IMG/VR virus record: IMGVR_UViG_3300035198_000074
Span: 1 to 60,264 of that record
Direction: 5' to 3' (one strand)
DNA from: a virus
Length of the DNA stretch: 60,264 nt
The notes beneath the pieces were generated by a model that saw only the letters and a program-made list of their open reading frames with translations, was not told the origin of the DNA and searched no databases. Every line of letters begins with the position of its first letter. The stretch's first letter is position 1. The translations under genes and the position numbers were made by a program. This document shows, piece after piece, positions 2,865-60,264 of the stretch.

Positions 2865-2869
2865 AAAAT

Positions 2870-3330
2870 ATGTCTAAAATGCAATTTTTGGTTAAGCCTT
2901 GCGTCTCACGCCCTAACTTTCAAACAACTACTTTCCCTCAAAGGAAAGTAGTTGTAGTTAGGGTGTGAAGGTAACCCGTGAATTTTTTGTTTTATATATA
3001 TATAGGGGCCGTTGTAACGGCGTAGTTATTGAAATCATTAAGGAATTTAGGCAAGTTTCCAAAGTAGGCATGTGTAGGGTTTAAGCTATGGAAATTATTA
3101 ATGTTTTGGTCAATTTTCAAAAAGGGCTACACTTTGGTTTACACTTTGATGAGAAATTAGCCTACAATAGGACTACACTTAATTTTACAACGCTCAAGTG
3201 CTTGTATTTGTTCATTCTACAACAGGCTACACTTGATTTTACAATTTTAGGGTAAAAATGGCAATTTTATGTGTAAAAGCTGTTGTAAGGCCGTTGTAGC
3301 AAGTGTAAAAAAAGATAAATTTAAGTGAAA
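2870..3330. other. Gene-free region with iteron-like repeats, candidate replication origin
   Basis: About 590 bases separate two genes and no convincing gene is seen. Motif CTACACTT(A/G)ATTTTACAA occurs at 3173 and 3228. Further TACACTT copies lie at 3128 and 3140, and reversed copies (TTGTAG, AGTGTAAA) at 3290-3310. GCCGTTGTAACGGC is an inverted repeat at 3008-3021. A 26-bp stem sits at 2906-2968. Placement next to a RepA-like ATPase with an HTH fits an origin. This is inference; no DnaA-box array was identified. Confidence 0.45.
2906..2968. repeat. Long inverted repeat forming a 26-bp stem
   Basis: 2906-2918 pairs with 2956-2968 (13 bp, one G-T) and 2924-2936 pairs perfectly with 2943-2955 (13 bp). 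The loop is CTCAAA and there is one 5-base bulge. No T-run follows directly, so a simple terminator is less likely than a cruciform or single-strand hairpin, although termination of the RepA-like gene cannot be excluded. Confidence 0.8.
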
Positions 3331-21972: not shown

Positions 21973-23859
21973 TCAAAATGGTAATCCCGTCCATGGATTA
22001 ATGGGACAGCAACCTTGATCTTTCATTGCCTGCGTTCTTTTATCGCAAGTATAGCCACAAGGATGTGCATAGGAGCATGTTGGTGGTTGGCATTGATATG
22101 CACCACAATTTATTCCAGAATTAGTAATGTAATCGCATGGATCTCCAAATATATCTTCACATGAAGCCCCCAATTGGTTACAGGAAAACGTCACTTGAGC
22201 ACAATTTCCAGGATTATAGCCTGGACAACCAGGCCCAAGAGTTTCAGAAATAAAACTTCCATCGCAACGATAGCTGTAATATTTATAGCCGATACCACAT
22301 ACCCTCAAAACCCCACAACCATAACAATCTGCCCATCCACATATCCCCGGCCAGTTTGCCCATTGCTCATTATAGGCAATCTCATCGGGTGTATAACAAT
22401 TTACGGCTATCTTAATATCCGCACTGTCACCGCAACAGTCTGTAACTGTAATTGTAGGATTAAAAGCACATCCAGCATTTGAAGCAGGGGCTGTATATGA
22501 CGCAGATGAACCATCGTCGCTTTGTGTCAGTGTGCCACCACCTGCAAGACTCCATTCATAGGGACCGATCCCGCCATTAGCTGAGAAATTTTGGCCTTCG
22601 CTACATTCCATCATCAGCGATGTATATCCTATTGAAAGAGGCTCATGTTGACCACTACAAGCATCAACTGTTTGAACAACATACTGGACTCCACAACGAT
22701 CTGTCAAAGTAATAGTCACTTTATCATGACAGTCTTCTGATAGATTAGTAATATAATAAGCAACCGTTTTATACCCGCTCTCTGGAACAATAAGCTCTCC
22801 AGGGCCAGATAAAGTCCATTCAAACGGAATACAGCTTCCTTTAATATCAGGAATGGCATATAAGGGAGCGCGGTCATAAGGACTTAATAATGAATATAGC
22901 CTTAATTTCGGTTGGTCTAAATCTTGAGGCATTTTACAAAGTGCAACATCTCCATACATAATAAAAGGTGAGCACGTCCCAAAATCTTCCCACCAGATTT
23001 CTACTTTTCTATCATCCGCCGCTTTTTCGCAACAATCCACCTTCACGATGGTTTCGACTTGACAAAGCTCATTTCCACCATACTGGATAAACAATTTTAA
23101 AAGAAGGTATCCCAAACCAGTTCTTGAGAAAATGCCACCTTCCCATTCTGTATAGGCTTTCCATAAGAAATAAGTACCTTGCGCATCATGATCAAACTTT
23201 AGAATTTCGGCTTGCCCAGAGTCATAGAAACTGTAGATGAGGTGATTTTCAGGATCGGGCGGAACAGGGGGAGTACTGTCTGGATGACCTTGAAAATAAG
23301 GAACAGCCCCACCCAGATAAAGGCGTTTTGAAGCATCATAAGTATAGGGATGACATTCAGGCGAACTTATACTATCTGTCTCGCATACAGTAGAAAGAAC
23401 GGAGGAACAGGTAGTACAATTCGTCAAACTGAGACGATAATATGTTTTAAGATAATCCACTCCTTCTACCTCAGTATTGCCCTCTGGGTCTTTAATTATC
23501 CACACATCGCCTTCCTTTGTAAATATCTCCTGACCTGGGGCATACCACTTCATCGGGGGTATTTTTTCTGGTGGATTTATAAATTCAATAACACATGCAG
23601 GCGCCAAAGCCGCCACTGCCGCCAGAGTTGTATCAATATTGACAAAGTCTTGTCCGAATATTGACCATGCCGTGATGATGGTTCCGTCTGTGAAATAGCG
23701 GGTCATCTTCAACTGACCGAGGGCATTAAACTTCATTTGATTCTTGAGTTCATAGAGGAGTTTATCCGCCTCGCCCCGAAATTGACTCGCATAAACCTTA
23801 TCGCCCTTGACGGTTCGAGTGAGTGCTGTGCTTGGATACTGGAATTGCCATTCCTTCAT
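21973..23859 (-). CDS. Cys-rich tail/adhesin protein with Ig-like domain
   Basis: A 628-residue protein whose start overlaps the end of the SPSX protein. The N-terminal half is beta-rich. Residues about 420-500 (NFSANGGIGPYEWSLAGGG and SSASYTAP) look like a bacterial Ig/PKD-type domain, with a related but weaker repeat just before it. The last ~130 residues hold many Cys (CGWADCYGCGVLRVCG and others), implying disulphides or metal sites. It probably binds receptor or stabilises the tail tip. Confidence 0.55.
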   Translation of the reverse strand: MKEWQFQYPSTALTRTVKGDKVYASQFRGEADKLLYELKNQMKFNALGQLKMTRYFTDGTIITAWSIFGQDFVNIDTTLAAVAALAPACVIEFINPPEKIPPMKWYAPGQEIFTKEGDVWIIKDPEGNTEVEGVDYLKTYYRLSLTNCTTCSSVLSTVCETDSISSPECHPYTYDASKRLYLGGAVPYFQGHPDSTPPVPPDPENHLIYSFYDSGQAEILKFDHDAQGTYFLWKAYTEWEGGIFSRTGLGYLLLKLFIQYGGNELCQVETIVKVDCCEKAADDRKVEIWWEDFGTCSPFIMYGDVALCKMPQDLDQPKLRLYSLLSPYDRAPLYAIPDIKGSCIPFEWTLSGPGELIVPESGYKTVAYYITNLSEDCHDKVTITLTDRCGVQYVVQTVDACSGQHEPLSIGYTSLMMECSEGQNFSANGGIGPYEWSLAGGGTLTQSDDGSSASYTAPASNAGCAFNPTITVTDCCGDSADIKIAVNCYTPDEIAYNEQWANWPGICGWADCYGCGVLRVCGIGYKYYSYRCDGSFISETLGPGCPGYNPGNCAQVTFSCNQLGASCEDIFGDPCDYITNSGINCGAYQCQPPTCSYAHPCGYTCDKRTQAMKDQGCCPINPWTGLPF

Positions 23860-25091
23860 GATGTCTTAATAGGCTCCACAAGCATACTCATGTTATCAAT
23901 ATCAAAATCTGCACCATCATTATTCATGATTCGGATTGTGAAATAGTATCCCTTCAAACCAGTAGGCATCTTAAGCCGCTCTTGCGCAATCACGCTACCT
24001 GTTATTGTAGATGCTTTACTTACTTCTTGAGTTACATCTTCATCAGGGTAGACGTAGACAGTAAGAGTGCCTGTTGCCCTAAACATAAAGGTTATATCCC
24101 GCAAATATTTGCGCAAGCTTGTCCCGAAGTCAGTAGAGCCAGTCTTGAGCTTGGCAGATATAGTCGTTCCATTATCATCTGTCCCGCCTATCTCATAAAT
24201 ACCAGTCGGAGTAGCCCCCAATATTCTTCCGTTAAAATTAGCAATGGAGTTAAAGTTGAAGCCACTGTAGGTAGAGATTGCCTTATTCTTTATGTTGATT
24301 ACGATTCCAGTATATACCTCAGCAGGAGCTTCGCTGGGGCTGGCGCTTGGGGAAGCGGAAGGGCTGGCAGACGGAGACATGGAAGGACTCATTGAAGGCG
24401 AGGGAGAAGGACTTTCCGATGGGCTTCGTGAAGGAGAGGCTGTGCCACTTGCGCTTGGGCTACGGCTTGGGCTTGCGCTGGGAGATTTACTGGGGCTTTC
24501 CGAAGGCGACATGCTTGGGCTGGGAGAAGGAGAAATTGATGGACTCTTACTGGGACTCATACTTGGCGAAATACTTGGGCTTTCAGATGGCGATTCACTT
24601 GGGCTTCGACTCTTGCTTGCAGATGGTGATAAGCTTGCGGAAGGTGATAAGCTTGGGGATTCGCTGGGCGACATACTGGGGCTTCTGCTGGGGCTTAGCG
24701 ATGCTGATGGCGACAAACTGGGACTTGCACTGGGACTCATGCTTGGACTTTTGCTTGGTGATTCACTGGGACTAATACTCGCTGATGGGGATAAGCTTGG
24801 GCTTGCAGATGGCGATCTGCTTGGACTGGCAGAGGGAGAAGCACTTGGGCTTATACTGGGACTCATAGATGCAGAGGGAGATAAACTTGGACTCTTACTG
24901 GGGCTTACTGATGGAGAAGCGCTGGGACTTCTGCTTGGACTGACAGAAGCCGATGGAGACAAACTTGGGGAGGCGCTTGGACTCTGGCTTGCAGACGGAG
25001 AGAGACTCGGTGAGACACTGGGGCTCATCGAAGGGCTTAAACTTGGAGAAGCGCTTGGGCTTGCTGATGGGCTTTCACTTGCACTTGCCAT
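23856..25091 (-). CDS. Ser-Pro-Ser-X repeat tail protein
   Basis: A 411-residue protein from ATG 25091 (GGGAGGTAGTAAT). Residues about 5-255 are an uninterrupted (S-P-S-X)n array in which X varies (A, L, M, V, E, K, R, I, P). The last ~155 residues form a beta-rich domain ending in a segment with YYFTIRIMN and NMSMLVEP, as in phage tail proteins adjacent to propeller-like proteins. The repeat is probably an extended stalk. Its first residues, MASASESPS, match the capsid-side protein at 42331-42774. Confidence 0.65.
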   Translation of the reverse strand: MASASESPSASPSASPSLSPSMSPSVSPSLSPSASQSPSASPSLSPSASVSPSRSPSASPSVSPSKSPSLSPSASMSPSISPSASPSASPSRSPSASPSLSPSASISPSESPSKSPSMSPSASPSLSPSASLSPSRSPSMSPSESPSLSPSASLSPSASKSRSPSESPSESPSISPSMSPSKSPSISPSPSPSMSPSESPSKSPSASPSRSPSASGTASPSRSPSESPSPSPSMSPSMSPSASPSASPSASPSEAPAEVYTGIVINIKNKAISTYSGFNFNSIANFNGRILGATPTGIYEIGGTDDNGTTISAKLKTGSTDFGTSLRKYLRDITFMFRATGTLTVYVYPDEDVTQEVSKASTITGSVIAQERLKMPTGLKGYYFTIRIMNNDGADFDIDNMSMLVEPIKTS

Positions 25092-25095
25092 ATTA

Positions 25096-25986
25096 CTACC
25101 TCCCAATAGCTAAAAATTGCTGAAATGGGGAATTTCTGATAATAGCAGAACCAGACGTGAGTCCAGTCTTTTGGAATAGTCCTTCCTGCACCTTGACTAC
25201 AACCCCCTGATTATAGCCTGCATATACGTAACCATCTTCCGCAAGCCAGTAAGCTACCCTTGCTGCTGGTGCGCCTTTGGGGACCAATACCGCAGACATG
25301 CCTTCAATAGCAGGATAATCTAACTTTGGAGTTTCTACCCACTCTGATATTGGACTCCTGCCCGCTTCAAAATAGACTTTTTCACTATCGCTTACATAGA
25401 TGCCATTATCCACAGCCTTTACCATGGTAATCCTGCTTTTGAAAGAAATGGCATTTTTTCTTGTATCCATACGAGTAGGGATAGTGGCATCTGAGAAGAA
25501 TAGGTTGGTATTGTTAGCTGCATAAAGTCTGCTATTATACCATTCAAGTATCTGACCACCCACCATTCTTACTTTATAATCTTCTGTTGGGGTCGGAAAT
25601 GGATAGGGCAATCCTGTTCTCACATCAATATAGCCAATGATACTCATATTGGAGAAGTAGACGTAATTGCCGTTAAATGTGTAGGCAAAATCGTCATCAC
25701 CACTCACATCCTCAATCAGGATAGTGGAAGTATTGTCGGCATTGAGTCGTTTGAAAGTTGTGCCTTGCAGGTAGAGACAAATGTCGTCATTTGCCCACAG
25801 GCTTCTTATGTTAGTGCCTGATACTATTGCACTCCCGAAGCCATCTCGTAAGTGAGGCTTGCCCATATCATCAATATCCACATTCTCAATCTCGTAGAAG
25901 TAGGCTCCATCCTTGCGAAGTCTGTTGGTTGCAAGGTCAGATACATTATCAATTCCATAGACTCGTGTAATTTTATAATCAGGCAT
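25096..25986 (-). CDS. Tail stabilisation/structural protein
   Basis: A 296-residue protein. Start ATG 25986 is chosen because AAAGGAGG lies 8 bases upstream; a longer frame begins inside the previous gene. It starts MPDYKITRVYGIDNVSD and contains ENVDIDDMGKPHLRDGF, VYFSNMSIIGYIDV and LYAANNTNLFFSD, repeated blade-like beta units. I recall this pattern in podovirus tail proteins adjacent to the neck and fibres. Confidence 0.65.
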   Translation of the reverse strand: MPDYKITRVYGIDNVSDLATNRLRKDGAYFYEIENVDIDDMGKPHLRDGFGSAIVSGTNIRSLWANDDICLYLQGTTFKRLNADNTSTILIEDVSGDDDFAYTFNGNYVYFSNMSIIGYIDVRTGLPYPFPTPTEDYKVRMVGGQILEWYNSRLYAANNTNLFFSDATIPTRMDTRKNAISFKSRITMVKAVDNGIYVSDSEKVYFEAGRSPISEWVETPKLDYPAIEGMSAVLVPKGAPAARVAYWLAEDGYVYAGYNQGVVVKVQEGLFQKTGLTSGSAIIRNSPFQQFLAIGR

Positions 25987-27079
25987 CGAGGAAGCCTCCT
26001 TTATACCCATAGTATGACGCATTTGAATAACTTGTGCCATTATTAATTCTAATGTCTCTTACCCACCCAGCATAGGGAGGTTCCGTTATTGCTTCTGATG
26101 GCGATGGGGAAGGACTCATAGATGGACTGACGGATAGACTTAAGCTTGGGCTTAATGAAGGAGAAATGCTTGGCGAAGCGCTCGGCGAAACACTGGGCGA
26201 TAGACTTGGACTAATACTTGGACTCTTAGACGGCGATCCGCTTGGAGAAATACTTGGACTTAATGATGCACTGGGGCTGAGTGAAGGACTCACAGATGGA
26301 GACGCAGAAGGTGACTCAGACGCAGAAAGTGACGCTGAGGGACTTAGCGAAGGACTCATGCTCGGCGATATAGAAGGCGAAGCCGAAGGGGAAACACTTG
26401 GTGAAAGCGATGCAGAACCTATTGCCACACTTGGGCTTGCAGATGGAGACTCGCTTGGACTTATTGACGGAGATAGACTCGGAGAAATAGATGGAGATAA
26501 AGACGGAGACACCGATGCTGATGGACTCAAGCTTGGGCTTTCACTTGGAGAAATAGAAGGAGAAATGCTTAGACTAATGGATGGGCTTGCGGATGGAGAA
26601 ACTGAAGCTGATGGAGATAAGGAAGGACTTGCCGAGGGCGACATAGATGGTGACAAGCTTGGTGACTGCGAGGGCGATGCTGAAGGAGAAAGCGATGGCG
26701 ATTCGGAAGGTGACTCACTGGGACTCATTGAGAGCGACATACTTGGAGAAACTGATGCTGAAGGACTTAATGAAGGACTTTCAGATGGAGACTTACTGGC
26801 ACTTAGCGAAGGAGATGCGGATGGCGACAAACTCGCACTCTCAGAAGGTGATTTAGAAGGTGATAGACTCGGACTTTCTGATGGCGAGGGTGAAGGGCTA
26901 ACAGATGGAGATATTGATGGGCTAAGGCTTGCACTTGGCGAAAGCGATGGACTGGCACTTGGCGATTCGGATGGACTTACCGATGGAGATAAGCTTGCCG
27001 AAGGGGCACTAATAATCACCTCATCGCCAGCATTACTGATAACTTGATTGCCTAAATTGTCTATGACATATAAAGCCAT
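25979..27079 (-). CDS. Ser-Pro-Ser-X repeat fibre protein
   Basis: A 366-residue protein. A short N-terminal module (MALYVIDNLGNQVISNAGDE) is followed by about 300 residues of (S-P-S-X)n and a 30-residue C-terminal tail (GWVRDIRINNGTSY and YYGY). That tail recurs at the end of the 27899-30496 protein. The N-terminal module resembles the 37-residue gene at 27100-27213. It probably forms an extended fibre or stalk attached by its ends. Confidence 0.65.
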   Translation of the reverse strand: MALYVIDNLGNQVISNAGDEVIISAPSASLSPSVSPSESPSASPSLSPSASLSPSISPSVSPSPSPSESPSLSPSKSPSESASLSPSASPSLSASKSPSESPSLSPSASVSPSMSLSMSPSESPSESPSLSPSASPSQSPSLSPSMSPSASPSLSPSASVSPSASPSISLSISPSISPSESPSLSPSASVSPSLSPSISPSLSPSISPSESPSASPSVAIGSASLSPSVSPSASPSISPSMSPSLSPSASLSASESPSASPSVSPSLSPSASLSPSISPSGSPSKSPSISPSLSPSVSPSASPSISPSLSPSLSLSVSPSMSPSPSPSEAITEPPYAGWVRDIRINNGTSYSNASYYGYKGGFLDA

Positions 27080-42330: not shown

Positions 42331-42774
42331 TTAGAATCCTATTGCCATTACCTCCAATGTGGTAGATGATAAATATGCACCTTCACTCACCTCTGTTCCA
42401 TAGGTAGTGAAAACTCTAATGGTATTGGCCGATCTATCCCATTCATAATTTATTCCCGCTCCATTAGCTTCAAGAATGACTACTGCGTCAATGTTACTCA
42501 TCCCCAATTCTCCAGCGGTTAATGGAACCCCGCCAGATGGATAGGATGCTGGCGCACCCCCAAAAGCAATCGTAGCAAATGTCAACCTTTTCCTGCCTAT
42601 TCTCGATATTTTACCATGAAGAGTGTAAGTAACGTCTCCAGCAGGGATAGGTGATGGCGAAGCGCTGGGGCTTGCGCTGGGGCTGGATGAGGGAGACCTG
42701 CTTGGGCTCACACTTGGTGATGCACTGGGTGATGCACTGGGGCTAATGCTTGGGCTTTCTGATGCTGATGCCAT
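42331..42774 (-). CDS. Ser-Pro-Ser-X protein beside the capsid genes
   Basis: A 147-residue protein from ATG 42774 (AAGGAGGAAGGAAAT). Residues 1-42 are (S-P-S-X) repeats with the same MASASESPS opening as the tail protein at 23856-25091. The rest (VTYTLHGKISRIGRKRLTFAT, AFGGAPASYPSGGVPLT, YEWDRSANTIRVFTTYG) matches a beta-rich phage head protein pattern that I recall from genes next to capsid genes. It suggests surface-exposed repeats on the head. Confidence 0.65.
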   Translation of the reverse strand: MASASESPSISPSASPSASPSVSPSRSPSSSPSASPSASPSPIPAGDVTYTLHGKISRIGRKRLTFATIAFGGAPASYPSGGVPLTAGELGMSNIDAVVILEANGAGINYEWDRSANTIRVFTTYGTEVSEGAYLSSTTLEVMAIGF

Positions 42775-42855
42775 ATTTCCTTCCTCCTTATTCCCCTTGG
42801 TATTTGTGGGCAATTACGTCCCACGTTAGACTTCGGAGATAAATTTTAGTTGTGT

Positions 42856-44523: not shown

Positions 44524-46416
44524 TTAGGCCGTAGGAGGCATCCCAGCAGGTGCAGTTTCCATAGGTGTCGGCGCAGGCTCTCCTGCCATTGGCGGTGGCC
44601 CTCCTGGTGCCTGTCCCCCTACTTCTGGCACCTGTCCCCCTACTCCTAATGAATCCAGAAACTCTTTTATCTTTGCCTGCACCTCTGGCCCGCCCGATGC
44701 CACAAGTTCCCCTAACTTCTCGACCAATTGCTCCCCAATCTGGGTCTGCTCCAACTCCTCTTTCGTTTTTATGAATGGGGCCTTATACATTCCTATTGCC
44801 CCCATTACTTCATCAAGGTATTCTTTTAACTTAAAGAAGGGCTGAAATTTCGGGTCATCTGTAAATGCCTTCATTGCCATTAGCAATTTCGACTTTTCTG
44901 CCTGTTTAAGTTGAGAAGAAATTCCCGTGATGCTCAAATCACACTCCTCTGACAAGAATTGCTTTTTCTCATCAAGACTTGCCCCTTCCAGAAATCTTGT
45001 AAATTCATTATCTCCCAATACCCTTGTCGGAGTGGGGTCAGACAACCCATTCCAGTTTAGCACCATTGTCTCAAAAAGGGAATATCCTACATTGACCGCT
45101 CCACTCTCTATTTCCGCCCCTATGGAATCAAATATGCCTAAACTTTGCTCAGTCTTAATCTCCACTTCCCCTTTTGTAATCTGCTCCCTATATCCAGGCA
45201 ACCCTGCCGCCATAGCATTTACAAAATCCCCTTCCTCAATTAGGCCAGTGACATATTGCGCCACGGCGAGAATCTTCTCAATATTGGAAGTTGTCAAGAC
45301 ATCCTTAACTACTGGATATTGTATCATATCTGTGGTGCGATAGACTTCCTTACCGGGATAAAAATCAAGGTCTGTGGGATCAAGCATCAGTTCAGGCGCT
45401 ATCTCCCGCATACGGTTCACCACCCACGAAAAGTCATCCATGGTGAGGCTTAGCATATTATTGAGCATTCTCCAAATATCAAACACTCCCTCAATCAACC
45501 CTCTTCCGTCATAGCGAAGAATATGGGGAATGGGAACAAAGGAAGTACCTGCCCAGCGCATTTTTACAAAAGGAATCACTTCTGGCTTTCTGATAAGCAC
45601 CTCACCCGCAATTGTATATTTTGCATTAGGGAGAAGCATATCCCCTTTCTTATCAAGCACTATGCCATTAAATTCCCGCACAAGAACCGACTTTCGATAC
45701 TTGGTGCGATCCCAGTACATTTTCTTCCTGCGCTCTATCTCCTCCTTAGAGTCCTGTAACCCAGTAGGCGCTCCCCCTTCCTTTACTTTATCAATGTTGA
45801 TATAGTAACCATCTTTTGCCGCTTCATGAAGCGTCCACATATCAAGCCACTCTTCATGGATGCAATAATTGCCCGACCACGGTTCCCCTGTCAGGGCATC
45901 TGGGTCACGCAATATTTTCCATGGCTCCGCACAATCAAGTAGCATTCCATTTTCCCAGCGAGGGATAAGCTCAAGGGAGGTGCCAGTGGCGAAAGCCATT
46001 CGGCATGAATTAGCAAATTTTCGGGGAAAGTCGATTTTTCGTGGGGCAGACCAGAAAAGTAGGGCGTTCTTTACCTCATATGACATGTTTTTATCATTAA
46101 CTTCTACTCCTTCCACATTAATGTAGTTGGGATCTCGGAAGGCCCTTCTGATGATGGACACTGCTCTTTCTACGGCAGTGAATGGCTTATTGGTGGTGAC
46201 TCGTGATTGCCATGCTTCCTTATCGCCAAATGCCATAATGTTCTGGTAGGCATCCCAGAGTAAGGTCATGGCGTCAAGTATATCTATTCTGGCTCTTCGG
46301 GATTCGGTAGCGCATTCTATGCAATAATCGACAAAATGTTGGTCATCCTCTCCCGCAATAGCAATCGCTTCTTCCTCTCTTTCCTTTAGTTCTTTATCAT
46401 CTATGACATCAGGCAT
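44524..46416 (-). CDS. Portal protein
   Basis: A 630-residue protein in the expected place between large terminase and scaffold. The N-terminus contains an acidic, helical clip-like region (ATESRRARIDILDAMTLLWDAYQ) and repeats such as PRRAFRDP-type turns (IIRRAFRDPNY). VREFNGIVLD, WAGTSFVPIPHILRYDG and WRMLNNMLSLTMDDFSW resemble podovirus portals. The tail is Pro/Gly/Ala-rich (VGGQVPEVGGQAPGG). The length fits the family. Confidence 0.75.
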   Translation of the reverse strand: MPDVIDDKELKEREEEAIAIAGEDDQHFVDYCIECATESRRARIDILDAMTLLWDAYQNIMAFGDKEAWQSRVTTNKPFTAVERAVSIIRRAFRDPNYINVEGVEVNDKNMSYEVKNALLFWSAPRKIDFPRKFANSCRMAFATGTSLELIPRWENGMLLDCAEPWKILRDPDALTGEPWSGNYCIHEEWLDMWTLHEAAKDGYYINIDKVKEGGAPTGLQDSKEEIERRKKMYWDRTKYRKSVLVREFNGIVLDKKGDMLLPNAKYTIAGEVLIRKPEVIPFVKMRWAGTSFVPIPHILRYDGRGLIEGVFDIWRMLNNMLSLTMDDFSWVVNRMREIAPELMLDPTDLDFYPGKEVYRTTDMIQYPVVKDVLTTSNIEKILAVAQYVTGLIEEGDFVNAMAAGLPGYREQITKGEVEIKTEQSLGIFDSIGAEIESGAVNVGYSLFETMVLNWNGLSDPTPTRVLGDNEFTRFLEGASLDEKKQFLSEECDLSITGISSQLKQAEKSKLLMAMKAFTDDPKFQPFFKLKEYLDEVMGAIGMYKAPFIKTKEELEQTQIGEQLVEKLGELVASGGPEVQAKIKEFLDSLGVGGQVPEVGGQAPGGPPPMAGEPAPTPMETAPAGMPPTA

Positions 46417-47759: not shown

Positions 47760-49331
47760 CTACCCTCCATACAGTGATTGTACTGAACTTGCAATTGCTG
47801 CCTTCTTTCTACCTGCTGGTAACTTAATCCTCGCCTCCCTATCCATTTGAAACAATTTAGCTATGCCATGCGACAACCCTGCGGCTGGATGTGAGTTAAT
47901 ATCCCGATTATCAGGCTCATCTGATACCTTGCCACTGGCAGATTTATGATAGTGCCACCCACCTGATAATGCCCTATGGAGTATCTTCTCATGCTTGCTT
48001 ACCACAAACATAGGCTCCCCGCTTCCTATTTCTGATAGTAGAAGCTGCTTCAATGCCTCCTTTCTCGGCCCCCACCTCAACACTCCCCCTTCATATCTGG
48101 TATTTAACTCTTTCTCAATAATGGATGCTGCCGTCTGGGAACTATCAGATGGGTCACGATCCGCAAGAGTAGGATCGCCTAAATCTCGCCACTTAGTGAT
48201 TGCGTGATAGCGGTTCTGAATAAGTGGCTTTACCTGATCATCTAAGAATTGCTTCATCCCATATCCCAATATAGGCGCCCTCAATGTATCTGTGACAATG
48301 AACTTTCCCCTGGGCGTCCATTGAGCAAATACCACAGATGGGTGCATATCTCCATCCCAGAATCTATACGTAGTCTGATTTGGCATAGGGTCAAGGTCTT
48401 TATCAGACCTATGCCAGGGGCCATTATTCTTAGTTGCCTGGTATTCAGGGGTTACCGCAACCCCCTGCTGGACATGGGCAGGTCTACCTACAACCAGTCT
48501 ATCGAGCAAGTCAGGCCGCCCCCGAAGTGATGCTTCCATTGTCTTGCGGTAGACAATATCAATGTGCGGATTCTCTCCTCTTGGGATTCGGAACATCCTC
48601 CTATCCCATCCCCCCTCTTCATAAAACCTTACCCATGTCCAGTGATCTTCGGCAGGATAATTCTCTGTTATCATCCCGTGCCTTCGCTTTACCAATATCT
48701 CTGGTCCATTCCCGAAGTCTGTCCTTACCAGAGCTCCCATCCTCAGTCCCTCCTTGACCTCGGCAGGTGTCAGGCGCTCTTTTCCTCCCAATGCATCCAT
48801 CTTTTCTATAAACTCAGACGCCTCATTCGACATAATTGGATGTCGGAGTGAGGTAAGTCCAATTGTCCACACTTCTTCAGCTATCCCTCTCCCAATTTCC
48901 TCCTGCATGGCTGGGGCAGCTTCCTCCATCCATAGCCCGAATAATTGCATGGATTGTAACTGGTTAAGGTCGTCTGGGGAATCTACCCCAAAAAGGTAGG
49001 CTGTCCACCTTCCTGGAAGTTCTATATATCTGCCACCATCCCTTATAATTAGCATTTTCCGTATTTGGGCTGCGAATGAGTCTGGTTGAGGAAGAGTAAA
49101 GCTCTTAAGAGTGGTTCGGTCAAGGTTTGTCCATGTATCACGCACTATGGCCCAAGGAAGAGGCAGATATTGCTTATCAATAAGCGAGGCCCAGAAAGTC
49201 ATATCCATAATGCCTCCCTGTGTCTTACCTTCGCCTCTGGGGGAAACAATGAGCTTCTCAGGCGCATCGCATTTAATGAAATCCCATTGGGTAGGATTGG
49301 GAAGTAGCTTAACCTGTAATAGTTCAGTCAT
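47760..49331 (-). CDS. Terminase large subunit
   Basis: A 523-residue protein. The ATPase has the variant Walker A SPRGEGKT (about residues 30-37) and Walker B-like LFGLWMEEAA (about 130-139). The nuclease half shows RFWDGDMHPS and DLGDPTLADRD, acidic residues of the RNase H-like domain. It cuts concatemeric DNA and drives packaging into the portal encoded downstream. It overlaps the upstream 60-residue gene by 8 bases. Confidence 0.85.
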   Translation of the reverse strand: MTELLQVKLLPNPTQWDFIKCDAPEKLIVSPRGEGKTQGGIMDMTFWASLIDKQYLPLPWAIVRDTWTNLDRTTLKSFTLPQPDSFAAQIRKMLIIRDGGRYIELPGRWTAYLFGVDSPDDLNQLQSMQLFGLWMEEAAPAMQEEIGRGIAEEVWTIGLTSLRHPIMSNEASEFIEKMDALGGKERLTPAEVKEGLRMGALVRTDFGNGPEILVKRRHGMITENYPAEDHWTWVRFYEEGGWDRRMFRIPRGENPHIDIVYRKTMEASLRGRPDLLDRLVVGRPAHVQQGVAVTPEYQATKNNGPWHRSDKDLDPMPNQTTYRFWDGDMHPSVVFAQWTPRGKFIVTDTLRAPILGYGMKQFLDDQVKPLIQNRYHAITKWRDLGDPTLADRDPSDSSQTAASIIEKELNTRYEGGVLRWGPRKEALKQLLLSEIGSGEPMFVVSKHEKILHRALSGGWHYHKSASGKVSDEPDNRDINSHPAAGLSHGIAKLFQMDREARIKLPAGRKKAAIASSVQSLYGG

Positions 49332-49844: not shown

Positions 49845-49995
49845 TTTCCCGCTCCTCTACAATCCACTTATAAATCTCTTGCGCTCTGTCTATAAGCTGA
49901 GACTCTCTTATTTTATCTGTTTTATCTGAGTCGTATTCTAACGCTAATTCTAATGCTAATTTAATACACATCAATCTAAGTTCATCTCTTTCCAT
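49840..49995 (-). CDS. Small helical protein
   Basis: A 51-residue protein from ATG 49995 after AAAAGGAGGGCACAA. Helical (LRLMCIKLALELALEYDSDK, IDRAQEIYKWIVEER). It overlaps the YkgJ-like gene's ATT start by three bases, giving a coupled pair. Confidence 0.6.
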   Translation of the reverse strand: MERDELRLMCIKLALELALEYDSDKTDKIRESQLIDRAQEIYKWIVEEREN

Positions 49996-50212
49996 TTGTG
50001 CCCTCCTTTTGGCGACGTACTGCCCTACACGCTTTCTCTGTTAGCTTCATCCACCCATCTTCCCGCCTATGCCATACTTCCATTACCTTTTCGCCATGGT
50101 CCAATGCCGATACCTTATACTTATATTGCCCCTTGCGGTTGGTGATTCCTGTATTGAGAATATCCACTCTATCAATTGCGAGATTGTTAATGAATGCTAC
50201 AATATGCAACAT
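49982..50212 (-). CDS. Small hypothetical protein
   Basis: A 76-residue protein with a strand-rich core (YKYKVSALDHGEKVMEVWHR), EDGWMKLTEKACRAVRR, and a basic tail. It overlaps the next gene by 14 bases. It lies at the edge of the repeat array at 50254-50630; no strong ribosome site is seen. Confidence 0.5.
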   Translation of the reverse strand: MLHIVAFINNLAIDRVDILNTGITNRKGQYKYKVSALDHGEKVMEVWHRREDGWMKLTEKACRAVRRQKEGTNGKR

Positions 50213-50253
50213 GTTATTTCTACCTTAACATACTTCGCCAGTTTTTCAAGGTA

Positions 50254-50630
50254 AATTTTTCACGCCAATTTTCCAAGGTAAATTTTGCATACCAGTTTTT
50301 CCAGGTAATTTTTGTCTCCTAAATTTTCCAAGCAATTTTGTCCACAGAAATTTTCCAGGTAAATCTCGCCCCCTAAATTTTCCCCCAGAAATTTTCAAGC
50401 ACAAATTTTTAGGCCCAATTTTCCAGGTAGAAATTTTTAGGCATAATTTTCTGGACAACAATTTTTCGCCTCATCTGCGAGGTAAGAATTTTTTGGCGTA
50501 TGCAAGACATAAGAATTTTCCGACCTACCTGCCTGGGCAGAATTTTTGCCCCATTTATTTGGACAGAATTTTTGCCCCATTTATTTGGGCAGAATTTTTT
50601 GGCGCATGGCATCTAACAGAATTTTTTGGC
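50254..50630. repeat. Phased AATTTT tandem array between terminase genes
   Basis: At least 21 AATTTT-type blocks (a few AGTTTT/AATCTC) start at 50254, 50267, 50281, 50294, 50307, 50322, 50334, 50349, 50362, 50376, 50390, 50404, 50417, 50432, 50445, 50460, then every 26-28 bases to 50620. The period is therefore 13-14 bases, with a 27-base super-unit (AATTTTCCAGGTA alternating with AATTTTTnnGCC). Frames across it are not preserved, so it is probably non-coding. A packaging (pac) or origin-type binding array is plausible. Confidence 0.75.
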
Positions 50631-50639
50631 GCATGGCGT

Positions 50640-50963
50640 AGAGTTGGATGGGGGGAGACCTTGTTACCATATATATGCTCCCCGACCCAAGGGGGGTATC
50701 CATGGTTTTTTGATTTCCCACTATTCCCATAGATATGGTATGGTATCCTATTTGTCATCATCACTATCCTCCCCCTTCACCTAAACAGGGTATGATAATA
50801 TCTAATTCTGTCTACTTTGACTATAATATCCAAATTAGAAACATACATTATTTTAATAAGTTACAATCCATAATTAAAGTAAATTGTTTTTCCACAATAA
50901 ACCTGCCCGCAAATCCTTTATTTCTGGGCTATGTAGACTTTGCATAGATGCCAAATCTATCTT
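50640..50963. other. Gene-free AT-rich stretch
   Basis: No convincing gene on either strand. One GGGGAG/CTCCCC inverted repeat lies around 50655-50685; the remainder is AT-rich with many TATAAT-like words but no clear promoter. It separates the repeat array from the small terminase gene. Confidence 0.4.
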
Positions 50964-51446
50964 TCATAAGTCAATTTCCTTGCGATCAGTGGCCCGGCGG
51001 GGCGGGATAACCTGGAGAATTATATCTCCTCCATCTTTACCGGTATGTTCCTGGACGTCCCTAAAACGTCCTTTTGCTTTGCCTAATAATTCCGCAAACT
51101 TAGCTCTGGCCGAAAAATCTGGCGTTTCCAGGGTATCAGTGATCTTGCCCCGGAATGTTGCAAAATTGAAACGTGTCGAATTTAAGCCTTCCTTTAATTT
51201 CTCGGCCAATAAATTATCGGAAAGTCCTTTGATTTCGAGAAGTTGGTCGAACTCAATATTAAGTTTCTTTAATCTTCCGTACCCGGCCACAGCCAGAGAC
51301 TGTCTATTTTTCGACATACTCCCAGCATGTTTTTCGCATTGCCAAAGTGGTTTGCCTTGTAAATAGTAGTCAAGGAAACGGCGGTCTTTAAGGCTAAGTT
51401 TGCGTGTACCTATTAGTTTGGGTATATCCGGCGGTGATAATGGCAT
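50964..51446 (-). CDS. Terminase small subunit
   Basis: A 160-residue protein with ribosome site TAGGAGGAGTATACATT. The N-terminal half is helical with LSLKDRRFLDYYLQGKPLWQC and a helix-turn-helix-like pattern. GLSDNLLAEKLKEGLNSTR followed by FRGKITDTLETPDFSARAKFAELLGKAKG is typical of phage small terminases. It recognises packaging sites on DNA. The array at 50254-50630, transcribed after it, is a candidate target. Base composition is richer in GC than that of neighbours. Confidence 0.75.
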   Translation of the reverse strand: MPLSPPDIPKLIGTRKLSLKDRRFLDYYLQGKPLWQCEKHAGSMSKNRQSLAVAGYGRLKKLNIEFDQLLEIKGLSDNLLAEKLKEGLNSTRFNFATFRGKITDTLETPDFSARAKFAELLGKAKGRFRDVQEHTGKDGGDIILQVIPPRRATDRKEIDL

Positions 51447-51499: not shown

Positions 51500-51712
51500 G
51501 GAGATAATGAGTAAATATAATTTTAGATGTTATTGGGCGCATACCGCAAAAATTGTTAGTTTGTGCATAAAATTTTTATCTTTTGTAGAATCAAGTAGTT
51601 AGGCGAGTTATCAACATTTCTACAGGACGTAAATTGTCAGTCTGATGTAAAATGCGACAAGTGACAAAGTTTGCGCTATTGAAATCATTGAGGATTTTTG
51701 TTTGGGGTTGGC

Positions 51713-52045
51713 ATGAGGGTTGCAGTATTAAATGTTATGAAAAATTTAATAAATCTCATTTACCAGCGGGCTGCGGAGCAAAACATAAAGATAGAGTCCG
51801 CACCCTCCCATCGAAGGGATAAAGACCATATTAGTGCAGGCCGCCGCTCGGTTACAATGCCGAATGGCAGAGTGTATGATTACAGGGACACTCTGATCGG
51901 CATTGGCCTGCGACTCAACCTGATAACTCAGGCTGAGTACGAGGAGGCGTTATTGCGCAATCCTCGTAATATGCGCTGCCCTCGATGCGGCAGGGTAACC
52001 GAGAAAGAGGTAGTAACCCAATTTGGGTACTGCCTAAATTGCTAA
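51713..52045 (+). CDS. Zinc-ribbon-tailed hypothetical protein
   Basis: A 110-residue protein from ATG 51713 (GGGG 5 bases upstream; longer starts lack a site). The body is basic and helical. The C-terminus CPRCGRVTEKEV and YCLNC is a zinc ribbon. It is the first gene of the rightward early block. Its DNA contains three nested stems at 51836-51911. Function unknown. Confidence 0.6.
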   Translation: MRVAVLNVMKNLINLIYQRAAEQNIKIESAPSHRRDKDHISAGRRSVTMPNGRVYDYRDTLIGIGLRLNLITQAEYEEALLRNPRNMRCPRCGRVTEKEVVTQFGYCLNC

Positions 52046-58070: not shown

Positions 58071-58225
58071 GTAAGGTCCAAGCATCTAAGCGTGCAAGAC
58101 ACCATAAGCGCCTGGGCCTGCACCATCCAAGTCATGTACCAGGCAAGGCATGGCAAAAGTTTGTGCAAAATAAGATGAAGGCATTGAAGGAAAGTTACCC
58201 AGATTGCATATCGCATAATGCATAG
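58067..58225 (+). CDS. Small basic protein ending inside a heptamer repeat
   Basis: A 52-residue His/Lys/Arg-rich protein (RHHKRLGLHHPSHVPGKAW), coupled to the gene before it. Its last codons (DCISHNA) and stop lie in the first three units of the 7-base repeat, so changes in repeat number would alter its C-terminus. Function unknown, possibly nucleic-acid binding. Confidence 0.55.
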   Translation: MSKVQASKRARHHKRLGLHHPSHVPGKAWQKFVQNKMKALKESYPDCISHNA

Positions 58226-58274
58226 GGCATAATGCATGATGCATATGGCATAATGCGTAATGCATATTGCATAA
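58205..58274. repeat. Ten tandem heptamers (TGCATAN type)
   Basis: 70 bases divide exactly into ten 7-base units: TGCATAT, CGCATAA, TGCATAG, GGCATAA, TGCATGA, TGCATAT, GGCATAA, TGCGTAA, TGCATAT, TGCATAA. The array ends directly at GGAGATAGCAAA and ATG 58287. Palindromic ATGCAT cores allow many local hairpins. Confidence 0.9.
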
Positions 58275-59258: not shown

Positions 59259-59321
59259 AAGCCATTCTCCGTCATTAAATGCAGGAACAACGATATCAGT
59301 GGAGAATCCTGCCCGACCTAT
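59244..59321 (+). ncRNA. Predicted pseudoknotted intergenic RNA element, copy 3
   Basis: 59246-59252 (AGGTCGG) pairs with 59313-59319 (extended by a C-A mismatch and a G-U). 59264-59270 (ATTCTCC) pairs perfectly with 59301-59307, and 59281-59285 (GCAGG) within that loop pairs with 59308-59312 (CCTGC). Arms match copies 1 and 2; inner stems are new sequences with the same order. Followed by AAGGAG and ATG 59342. Shorter remnants of the 3' arm lie at 59521-59536 and 59689-59712. Confidence 0.55.
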
Positions 59322-59341
59322 CCTATTGGAAGGAGAAAAAG

Positions 59342-59512: not shown

Positions 59513-59552
59513 GAAGAAATTCTGCCCGACCTGCCTTAAATGAAAGAAAAAA

Positions 59553-59986: not shown

Positions 59987-60151
59987 ATGGAAGAAAGAAG
60001 ACTTTATTTTTATCCCGACATTGAAAGAATTCTTGATAGATATGGAGAGCAAGAAGGAAAGGACGAGTTAGTTGAAAGATTGTTATTATATTTAGCATCC
60101 TTAGTTAGTGACAAAAAAGAAGAGAAGGTTGAAGAAGATGGAAGCAAGTGA
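59987..60151 (+). CDS. Small helical hypothetical protein
   Basis: A 54-residue protein from ATG 59987 (AAAGGAGAAGAAA). It is charged and helical (LYFYPDIERILDRYGEQEGKDELVERLLLYLASLV). Its last 14 bases overlap the start of the membrane-protein gene repeated from position 203. Function unknown. Confidence 0.6.
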   Translation: MEERRLYFYPDIERILDRYGEQEGKDELVERLLLYLASLVSDKKEEKVEEDGSK

Positions 60152-60264
60152 AATTGAACAAGCACGTAAGAAACAATACATTCACAAGCGTGCAGAGGAC
60201 ATTAGAGCAAGTTGGTTATTGTTCTGTCTGGTTGGAATTCCCGTCTTAATTGTTTATCCTTTCT
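60138..60264 (+). repeat. Terminal direct repeat of 203-329 (second copy of a membrane-protein gene start)
   Basis: All 127 bases equal 203-329. The bases before the repeat differ (GAAGAAG here, GGAGAAA there), so the identity begins precisely at the ATG. The length and position suggest an assembly overlap where a circular genome closes into an internal junction. Confidence 0.9.

Follow-up and report, generated by a model that had tools for sequence, protein, structure and literature searches.

Background

In phage SPP1, the cut site of pac is flanked by sites bound by the small terminase subunit (TerS), which reads DNA structure (PMC4856287, PMC6316719). The pac repeats themselves are immaterial for binding, and the DNA-binding domains of SF6 TerS show little sequence preference, being nearly non-specific (PMC4737164). 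Given that the isolated domain has almost no preference (PMC4737164), it is a standing question how an SF6/SPP1-type small terminase recognises the genome of its own phage. Binding of SPP1 TerS to DNA is inhibited by distamycin, a minor-groove binder (PMC7672466).

Phage lambda depends on a stretch between cosN and cosB in which A4T4 tracts, spaced 17 bp, stand out of phase (GAAAATTTTCC; PMC4856287). The phi29 protein p6 binds the minor groove with one dimer per 24 bp and one monomer per 12 bp, and it is displaced by distamycin (PMC10899789).

Here we describe an array of AATTTT blocks in a single viral record of 60,264 bases (the window). The SF6-like TerS of this phage, together with the published findings on SPP1 and lambda, leads us to favour the array and an adjoining conserved core as the place where a phage family initiates packaging, whether pac or cos, a reading to which we give about an even chance.

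Genomic setting and terminase genes

The array occupies part of a 750-base stretch in which no gene is convincing, with terS on one side and small ORFs followed by terL on the other. The positions of both genes bear out the original prediction, which had placed the array between terminase genes. All features discussed in this region lie on the minus strand: terS at 50964–51446 (160 aa, SF6/SPP1-type small terminase with an N-terminal helix-turn-helix (HTH); phrog_51, E 9e-5), a small ORF directly after the array at 49982–50212 (76 aa, no known family), terL at 47760–49331 (523 aa, large terminase; phrog_2, E 5e-9) and the portal or head-tail connector gene at 44524–46416 (630 aa; phrog_332, E 5e-7). 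Read on the coding strand, the element is 3′ of terS and 5′ of terL. Its claimed position next to the small terminase gene is correct as to the neighbour, but it adjoins the 3′ end of that gene and not its start.

The TerS sequence matches the profile of SF6 TerS (3zqp, E 6.9e-5, profile positions 4–122). In the structural model, which has a mean pLDDT of 52 and is reliable only for about residues 15–70, residues 16–71 align with the SF6 DNA-binding domain 2cmp (Z 6.0, rmsd 2.2, 52 aligned). The three best structure matches of the model are 2cmp (Z 6.0), 4zc3 (Z 5.8) and 3zqq (Z 5.2). By profile and model, then, the window TerS is classed as an SF6/SPP1-type small terminase with an HTH domain.

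Late genes run leftward from about 51.4 kb and early genes rightward from about 51.7 kb. At the point of divergence there is a weak match to a group I intron (51639–51821, E 0.026, below the gathering score). Other repeats occur in the window as well: ten tandem copies of the 7-base TGCATAA in the early region (58205–58274), and the dispersed motif CTGCCCGACCTGCC at 871–884, 1353–1366, 59309–59322 and 59522–59535. The latter stands shortly before early-gene ribosome-binding sites, is commoner than in shuffles and is possibly an early regulatory motif. Three late proteins (23856–25106, 25979–27079 and 42331–42813) carry long SASPSxSPS repeats.

The ends of the contig overlap exactly over 127 bases (203–329 and 60138–60264), and its first 200 bases are unrelated. 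The contig is probably a circular assembly closed at a word size of 127, with a 5′ tip that is spurious or a variant. Such self-closure is compatible with a permuted or a cos genome, and the overlap does not reveal the termini.

Anatomy of the array

On the plus strand, exact AATTTT occurs 20 times in the array, at 50254, 50267, 50281, 50307, 50322, 50334, 50349, 50376, 50390, 50404, 50417, 50432, 50445, 50460, 50487, 50514, 50541, 50567, 50593 and 50620. Two CAGTTTTTC variants (AGTTTT) at 50239 and 50293 bring the total to 22 blocks, in line with the claim of more than 20, and set the span at 50239–50625. The extent first given, 50254–50630, is indeed occupied, but the array continues to 50239. 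Blocks are strictly of one orientation, AAAATT being absent from the plus strand of the array.

Two parts can be distinguished. The dense part (50239–50466, minus strand) has 16 AATTTT or AGTTTT blocks as read on the plus strand, with steps of 12–15 bp and a single 27-bp gap between 50349 and 50376. With the variants included, the mean step is about 13.6 bp; the expected step of 13–14 bases therefore holds as an average, over an irregular range of 12–15 bp. The core-proximal part (50460–50626, minus strand) consists of seven AATTTT blocks whose six gaps measure 27, 27, 27, 26, 26 and 27 bp, as foreseen for the last six blocks at double step.

The regularity is far from chance expectation. AATTTT occurs 56 times in the whole window, 36 of them in the roughly 60 kb outside the array, a density at which only about 0.2 copies would be expected per 377 bp. 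A phase test of the array gave a peak period of 13.6 with a resultant of 0.90, and 27 was the most frequent pair distance. Three successive AATTTT blocks separated by 6–9 bases each were found eight times in the window, always within the array, and never in 100 shuffles. Cores of the A|T type number 22 in the intergenic region (shuffles, 7.8), where pairs spaced 26–28 bp number 16; neither count was reached in 2000 shuffles.

Five positions of the block are constant in 22 of 22 copies and the sixth in 20 of 22, while the spacers vary freely. This suggests that the block is probably under selection, rather than a product of recent duplication. It also fits the suggestion that a protein array with its own spacing occupies the site.

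The element in related phages

A search with TerL returned one distant relative only, whereas the portal protein served as the query that found five closer ones (L124–L128). Their TerL proteins are 61–67% identical to that of the window over the matched parts, and their TerS proteins 37–45%. In all five, the order terS, core, array, terL is kept in the same gap and on the same strand, so that terS and terL flank the site in the window and in 5/5 closer relatives.

The conserved non-coding core, recognised in alignments, lies upstream of the array at 50640–50718 (minus strand) and reads ATCAAAAAACCATGGATACCCCCC...GCATATATATGGTAAC. In the relatives it is about 75 bp long and comprises ATMMAAAAMCC, a run of C and then, in most, TATAnnTATAGTAAnACC. 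There is one copy per genome, found only in the TerS–TerL gap of the six family members (several of the relatives being fragments), and the core is absent elsewhere among all loci examined. No conserved palindrome was seen in the core alignments, and the array stands on one side of the core.

After the core, the relatives have AAAATTTT-type cores mostly 27 bp apart, with some at 17. Read from the sequence, with some one-base core variants counted, the spacings are 27, 27 in L124; 27, 29 in L125; 27, 27, 17, 27 in L126; 27, 20, 24 in L127; and 27, 17, 27 in L128, where a second pair at 27 follows further on. Pairs at 26–28 bp exceed shuffles in L124 (P 0.0005), L126 (P 0.001) and L128 (P 0.004) and more weakly in L125 and L127 (P 0.04 each), values that are not independent, as L126–L128 are closely related.

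As judged from these sequence comparisons, the core-proximal 26–27 bp section is the counterpart of the relatives' 27-bp-step cores. The dense 13–14 bp section belongs to this phage alone, without a counterpart in the five closer relatives. The 13.5-bp part is, then, a phage-specific doubling of a 27-bp register common to the relatives. The original prediction had described a 27-base super-unit and had advised looking for the array in relatives. The first matches the commonest pair distance, with the qualification that relatives share the 27-bp part and not the 13-bp part; the second yielded a shorter version in 5/5 closer relatives. Both the core at about 50640–50718 and the sharing of the 27-bp register had been missed.

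In the distant relative (L002), array and core are absent, and the small gene before terL has no similarity to the window TerS. Co-occurrence of the element with this type of terS is confounded by descent, since relatives lacking the element are few and distant. Alignment scans with TerL and TerS brought no further close relatives, and a nucleotide search of phage records gave no match. No match was obtained with TerL in genome contigs either, so no host is named, and we found no cultured member of the family in this analysis. One more contig (L132) encodes a capsid protein 85% identical to that of the window; it starts inside the portal gene, hence the site region is absent.

The bare triplet pattern is found at no fewer than 120 loci in viral contigs, almost all of them single matches. 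An unrelated 78-kb viral contig (L027) carries a dense GGAAAATTTTTT array with 12–14 bp steps in a non-coding gap (2366–2650). This 12–14 bp GGAAAATTTT array was set aside as a comparison, no terminase having been recognised among the ORFs of the contig.

Several further features were observed in the relatives. TerL of L127 (2101–4740) is interrupted by an intein with a LAGLIDADG homing endonuclease near the Walker motif, and that of L125 (3074–5686) has a C-terminal insert that resembles another intein and has no Pfam match. Directly upstream of terS, L125 carries an HNH endonuclease gene (1636–2088, PF01844); HNH proteins adjoining terminases are known partners in phage packaging. The portal gene of relatives is likewise followed by tandem repeats (12-base multiples). 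The public contig L126 begins with an apparent Illumina adapter sequence (1–24).

The element is conserved as DNA

Reading frames of 69–129 aa are open through the element in relatives, and 27 bp would equal nine codons. Substitutions in the element are nonetheless spread evenly over codon positions (for example 26/25/25, 40/31/38 and 32/28/32), as against 34/17/186 in terL and 11/9/45 in terS. This flat pattern, set against the two controls, indicates that the element is conserved as DNA. A coding repeat was rejected on these counts and on the many aligned columns that are out of frame. From the core count and the flat codon pattern, each genome has a single site conserved at the DNA level, as is expected of a packaging-initiation site.

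A structured leader RNA was likewise ruled out, by a weak consensus fold (−2.2 kcal/mol, 7 pairs, no conserved structure in the element) and by the lack of any Rfam match above the gathering score. Bent DNA probably does not account for the array. A rough dinucleotide model predicts a curvature of 42.6 for it, compared with a genome mean of 63.0 and 338 for an in-phase control. That the step is not the helical repeat, as originally noted, agrees with this lack of net predicted curvature. Steps of 13.55, 17 and 27 bp correspond to turns of about 105, 223 and 206 degrees. The 27-bp and 17-bp spacings of the relatives differ by about one helical turn and have nearly equal angles, a hint that it may be important on which side of the helix a core lies.

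Taken together, array and core form an authentic element whose DNA is conserved, and these features make it probable that it serves to bind protein.

Possible roles of the element

Anatomy, conservation, non-coding nature and the type of TerS all support a packaging site; from these we infer binding, cut and direction as follows. Several HTH domains, belonging either to one TerS oligomer or to oligomers aligned along the DNA, would each touch one A/T core, with a single HTH engaged about every 13.5 bp or two of them every 27 bp. TerS bound to the array would load TerL, and the first cut would be made in or near the core, which is the likely candidate for this site. Packaging would then proceed in the direction of terL, the portal gene and the remaining late genes. 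In this phage, the array may have been lengthened and its register doubled, which would provide more binding sites. The pac-site reading of the original prediction is supported in part, by the conservation of the element in the TerS–TerL gap of five relatives and by the SF6/SPP1 type of TerS, a kind that recognises pac, and has to be widened to pac or cos.

Several points argue against a packaging site. The SF6 DNA-binding domain is near-non-specific and the SPP1 pac repeats do not matter for binding; the element is 3′ of terS, whereas SPP1 pac overlaps the 5′ end of that gene; and the dense array is found in one genome only. Wrapping around a ring as in SPP1 is disfavoured by the 13.5-bp and 27-bp steps (about 105 and 206 degrees), which are unsuited to flat wrapping.

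The strongest rival, although in our view unlikely, is a late-gene operator or leader, in which terL and the structural genes are expressed from a promoter within the core while a phage repressor or activator polymerises on the leader array. The element does precede terL, and in L125 and L127 the array extends right up to where ribosomes would bind for the following gene. A TATA-like sequence is present in the core, and TTGACA or TTGACC stands 17–19 bp before it in L125, L126 and L128; yet neither the window nor L124 has kept the TTGACA part. A sigma-70 promoter, suspected from TTGACA in L126 and L128, was unsupported by scans limited to the sigma-70 consensus, which gave no promoter at the core of the window or of L124, L125 or L126. 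Moreover, terS precedes the element in the direction of transcription and presumably shares its transcript. As SPP1 pac also overlaps promoters, one site could serve both purposes.

A replication origin, with the A/T cores as iterons for an initiator, was offered in the original prediction as the other choice and has come out weaker; we consider it quite doubtful. Repeated A/T-rich sites are typical of origins, there is one copy per genome, and the cumulative GC skew is lowest at 50–51 kb, but the turn in skew coincides with the switch in gene direction, which explains it equally well. The array is also found beside the late terminase genes in each of the relatives, and it is not next to the initiator-like gene (1956–2864), which has repeats of its own. 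Just after this RepA-like AAA_25/HTH helicase gene, at 2865–3250 (plus strand), two 13-nt inverted repeats and three GGCTACACTTnnTTTTACA-like repeats form a more typical candidate, and this stretch (2.9–3.25 kb) is a plausible replication origin.

The spacing logic of 27/13.5 bp resembles the 24/12 bp of phi29 p6 (PMC10899789), and a small phage protein might form a filament on the A/T cores as a genome-organising or partition site, like p6 or a centromere of the ParR/TubR type. The location among packaging genes speaks against it, and no candidate protein was found among the annotated window genes, which are part of the full set; we regard it as decidedly improbable. Least probable of all is a functionless tandem repeat in decay. 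No other genome has the dense part, and tandem repeats exist elsewhere in the window, but AATTTT is near-invariant while the spacers vary, and five diverged relatives have kept both the core and the 27-bp register. Lack of function is unlikely for the whole element and possible for part of the dense section.

Should the favoured reading of a packaging site hold, the array might further represent a new mode of recognition, in which an SF6-type TerS is lined along the DNA and not wrapped on one ring. The 13.5-bp/27-bp register on AAAATTTT cores would then carry, next to the cut, either a filament of helical form or several rings in line, with an expandable number of sites; 13.5 bp would correspond to one HTH and 27 bp to an HTH pair. 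We put this forward as a speculative and rather improbable extension. In practical terms, up to 22 uniform, regular cores make a clean substrate for varying register, number and phase and for counting TerS binding, and the conserved core is a short, testable stretch for locating the first cut.

Comparison with known systems

Like phi29 p6, the locus has spacing at two levels (24/12 bp there, 27/13.5 bp here), and its A/T cores recall the minor-groove preference of p6 for A/T (PMC10899789). The p6 protein, however, responds to the bendability of DNA, with no set recognition sequence, and acts along the entire genome to organise it, as opposed to the fixed AATTTT block in one short region seen here, for which no p6-like protein was identified. 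Origin iterons, such as those of SPP1 oriL/oriR, are similar in their direct repeats and A/T-rich DNA; the window array differs in lying among late packaging genes, far from replication genes.

The pac site of SPP1/SF6 (pacL–pacC–pacR) is served by a TerS of the same structural family. SPP1 TerS is thought to read A/T-rich DNA structure and is blocked by distamycin (PMC7672466), which is reminiscent of the window array. The arrangement differs: SPP1 pac, known here from papers only, overlaps a promoter and the beginning of terS, and the sites to either side of its cut are dissimilar, whereas the element is 3′ of terS in 6/6 genomes. In addition, pacL is bent, and the rough dinucleotide model does not predict bending for the window array.

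Lambda cos (cosN–I2–cosB) is, as here, a single site near the terminase genes. The lambda cos elements are upstream of terS, and the present element is downstream of it. Lambda has one I2, three R sites and an IHF site, in contrast to the 3–22 A/T cores at 13.5 or 27 bp in this family. The lambda GAAAATTTTCC element nevertheless looks much like the relatives' GAAAATTTTTC cores at 17 and 27 bp. The layout proposed here would also be alike, for in lambda an A4T4 tract on one side of the cut is followed by TerS sites, with all elements on one side (PMC4856287). If the element is, as seems most likely, where the family starts packaging, its putative binding array in this member is unusually long and dense.
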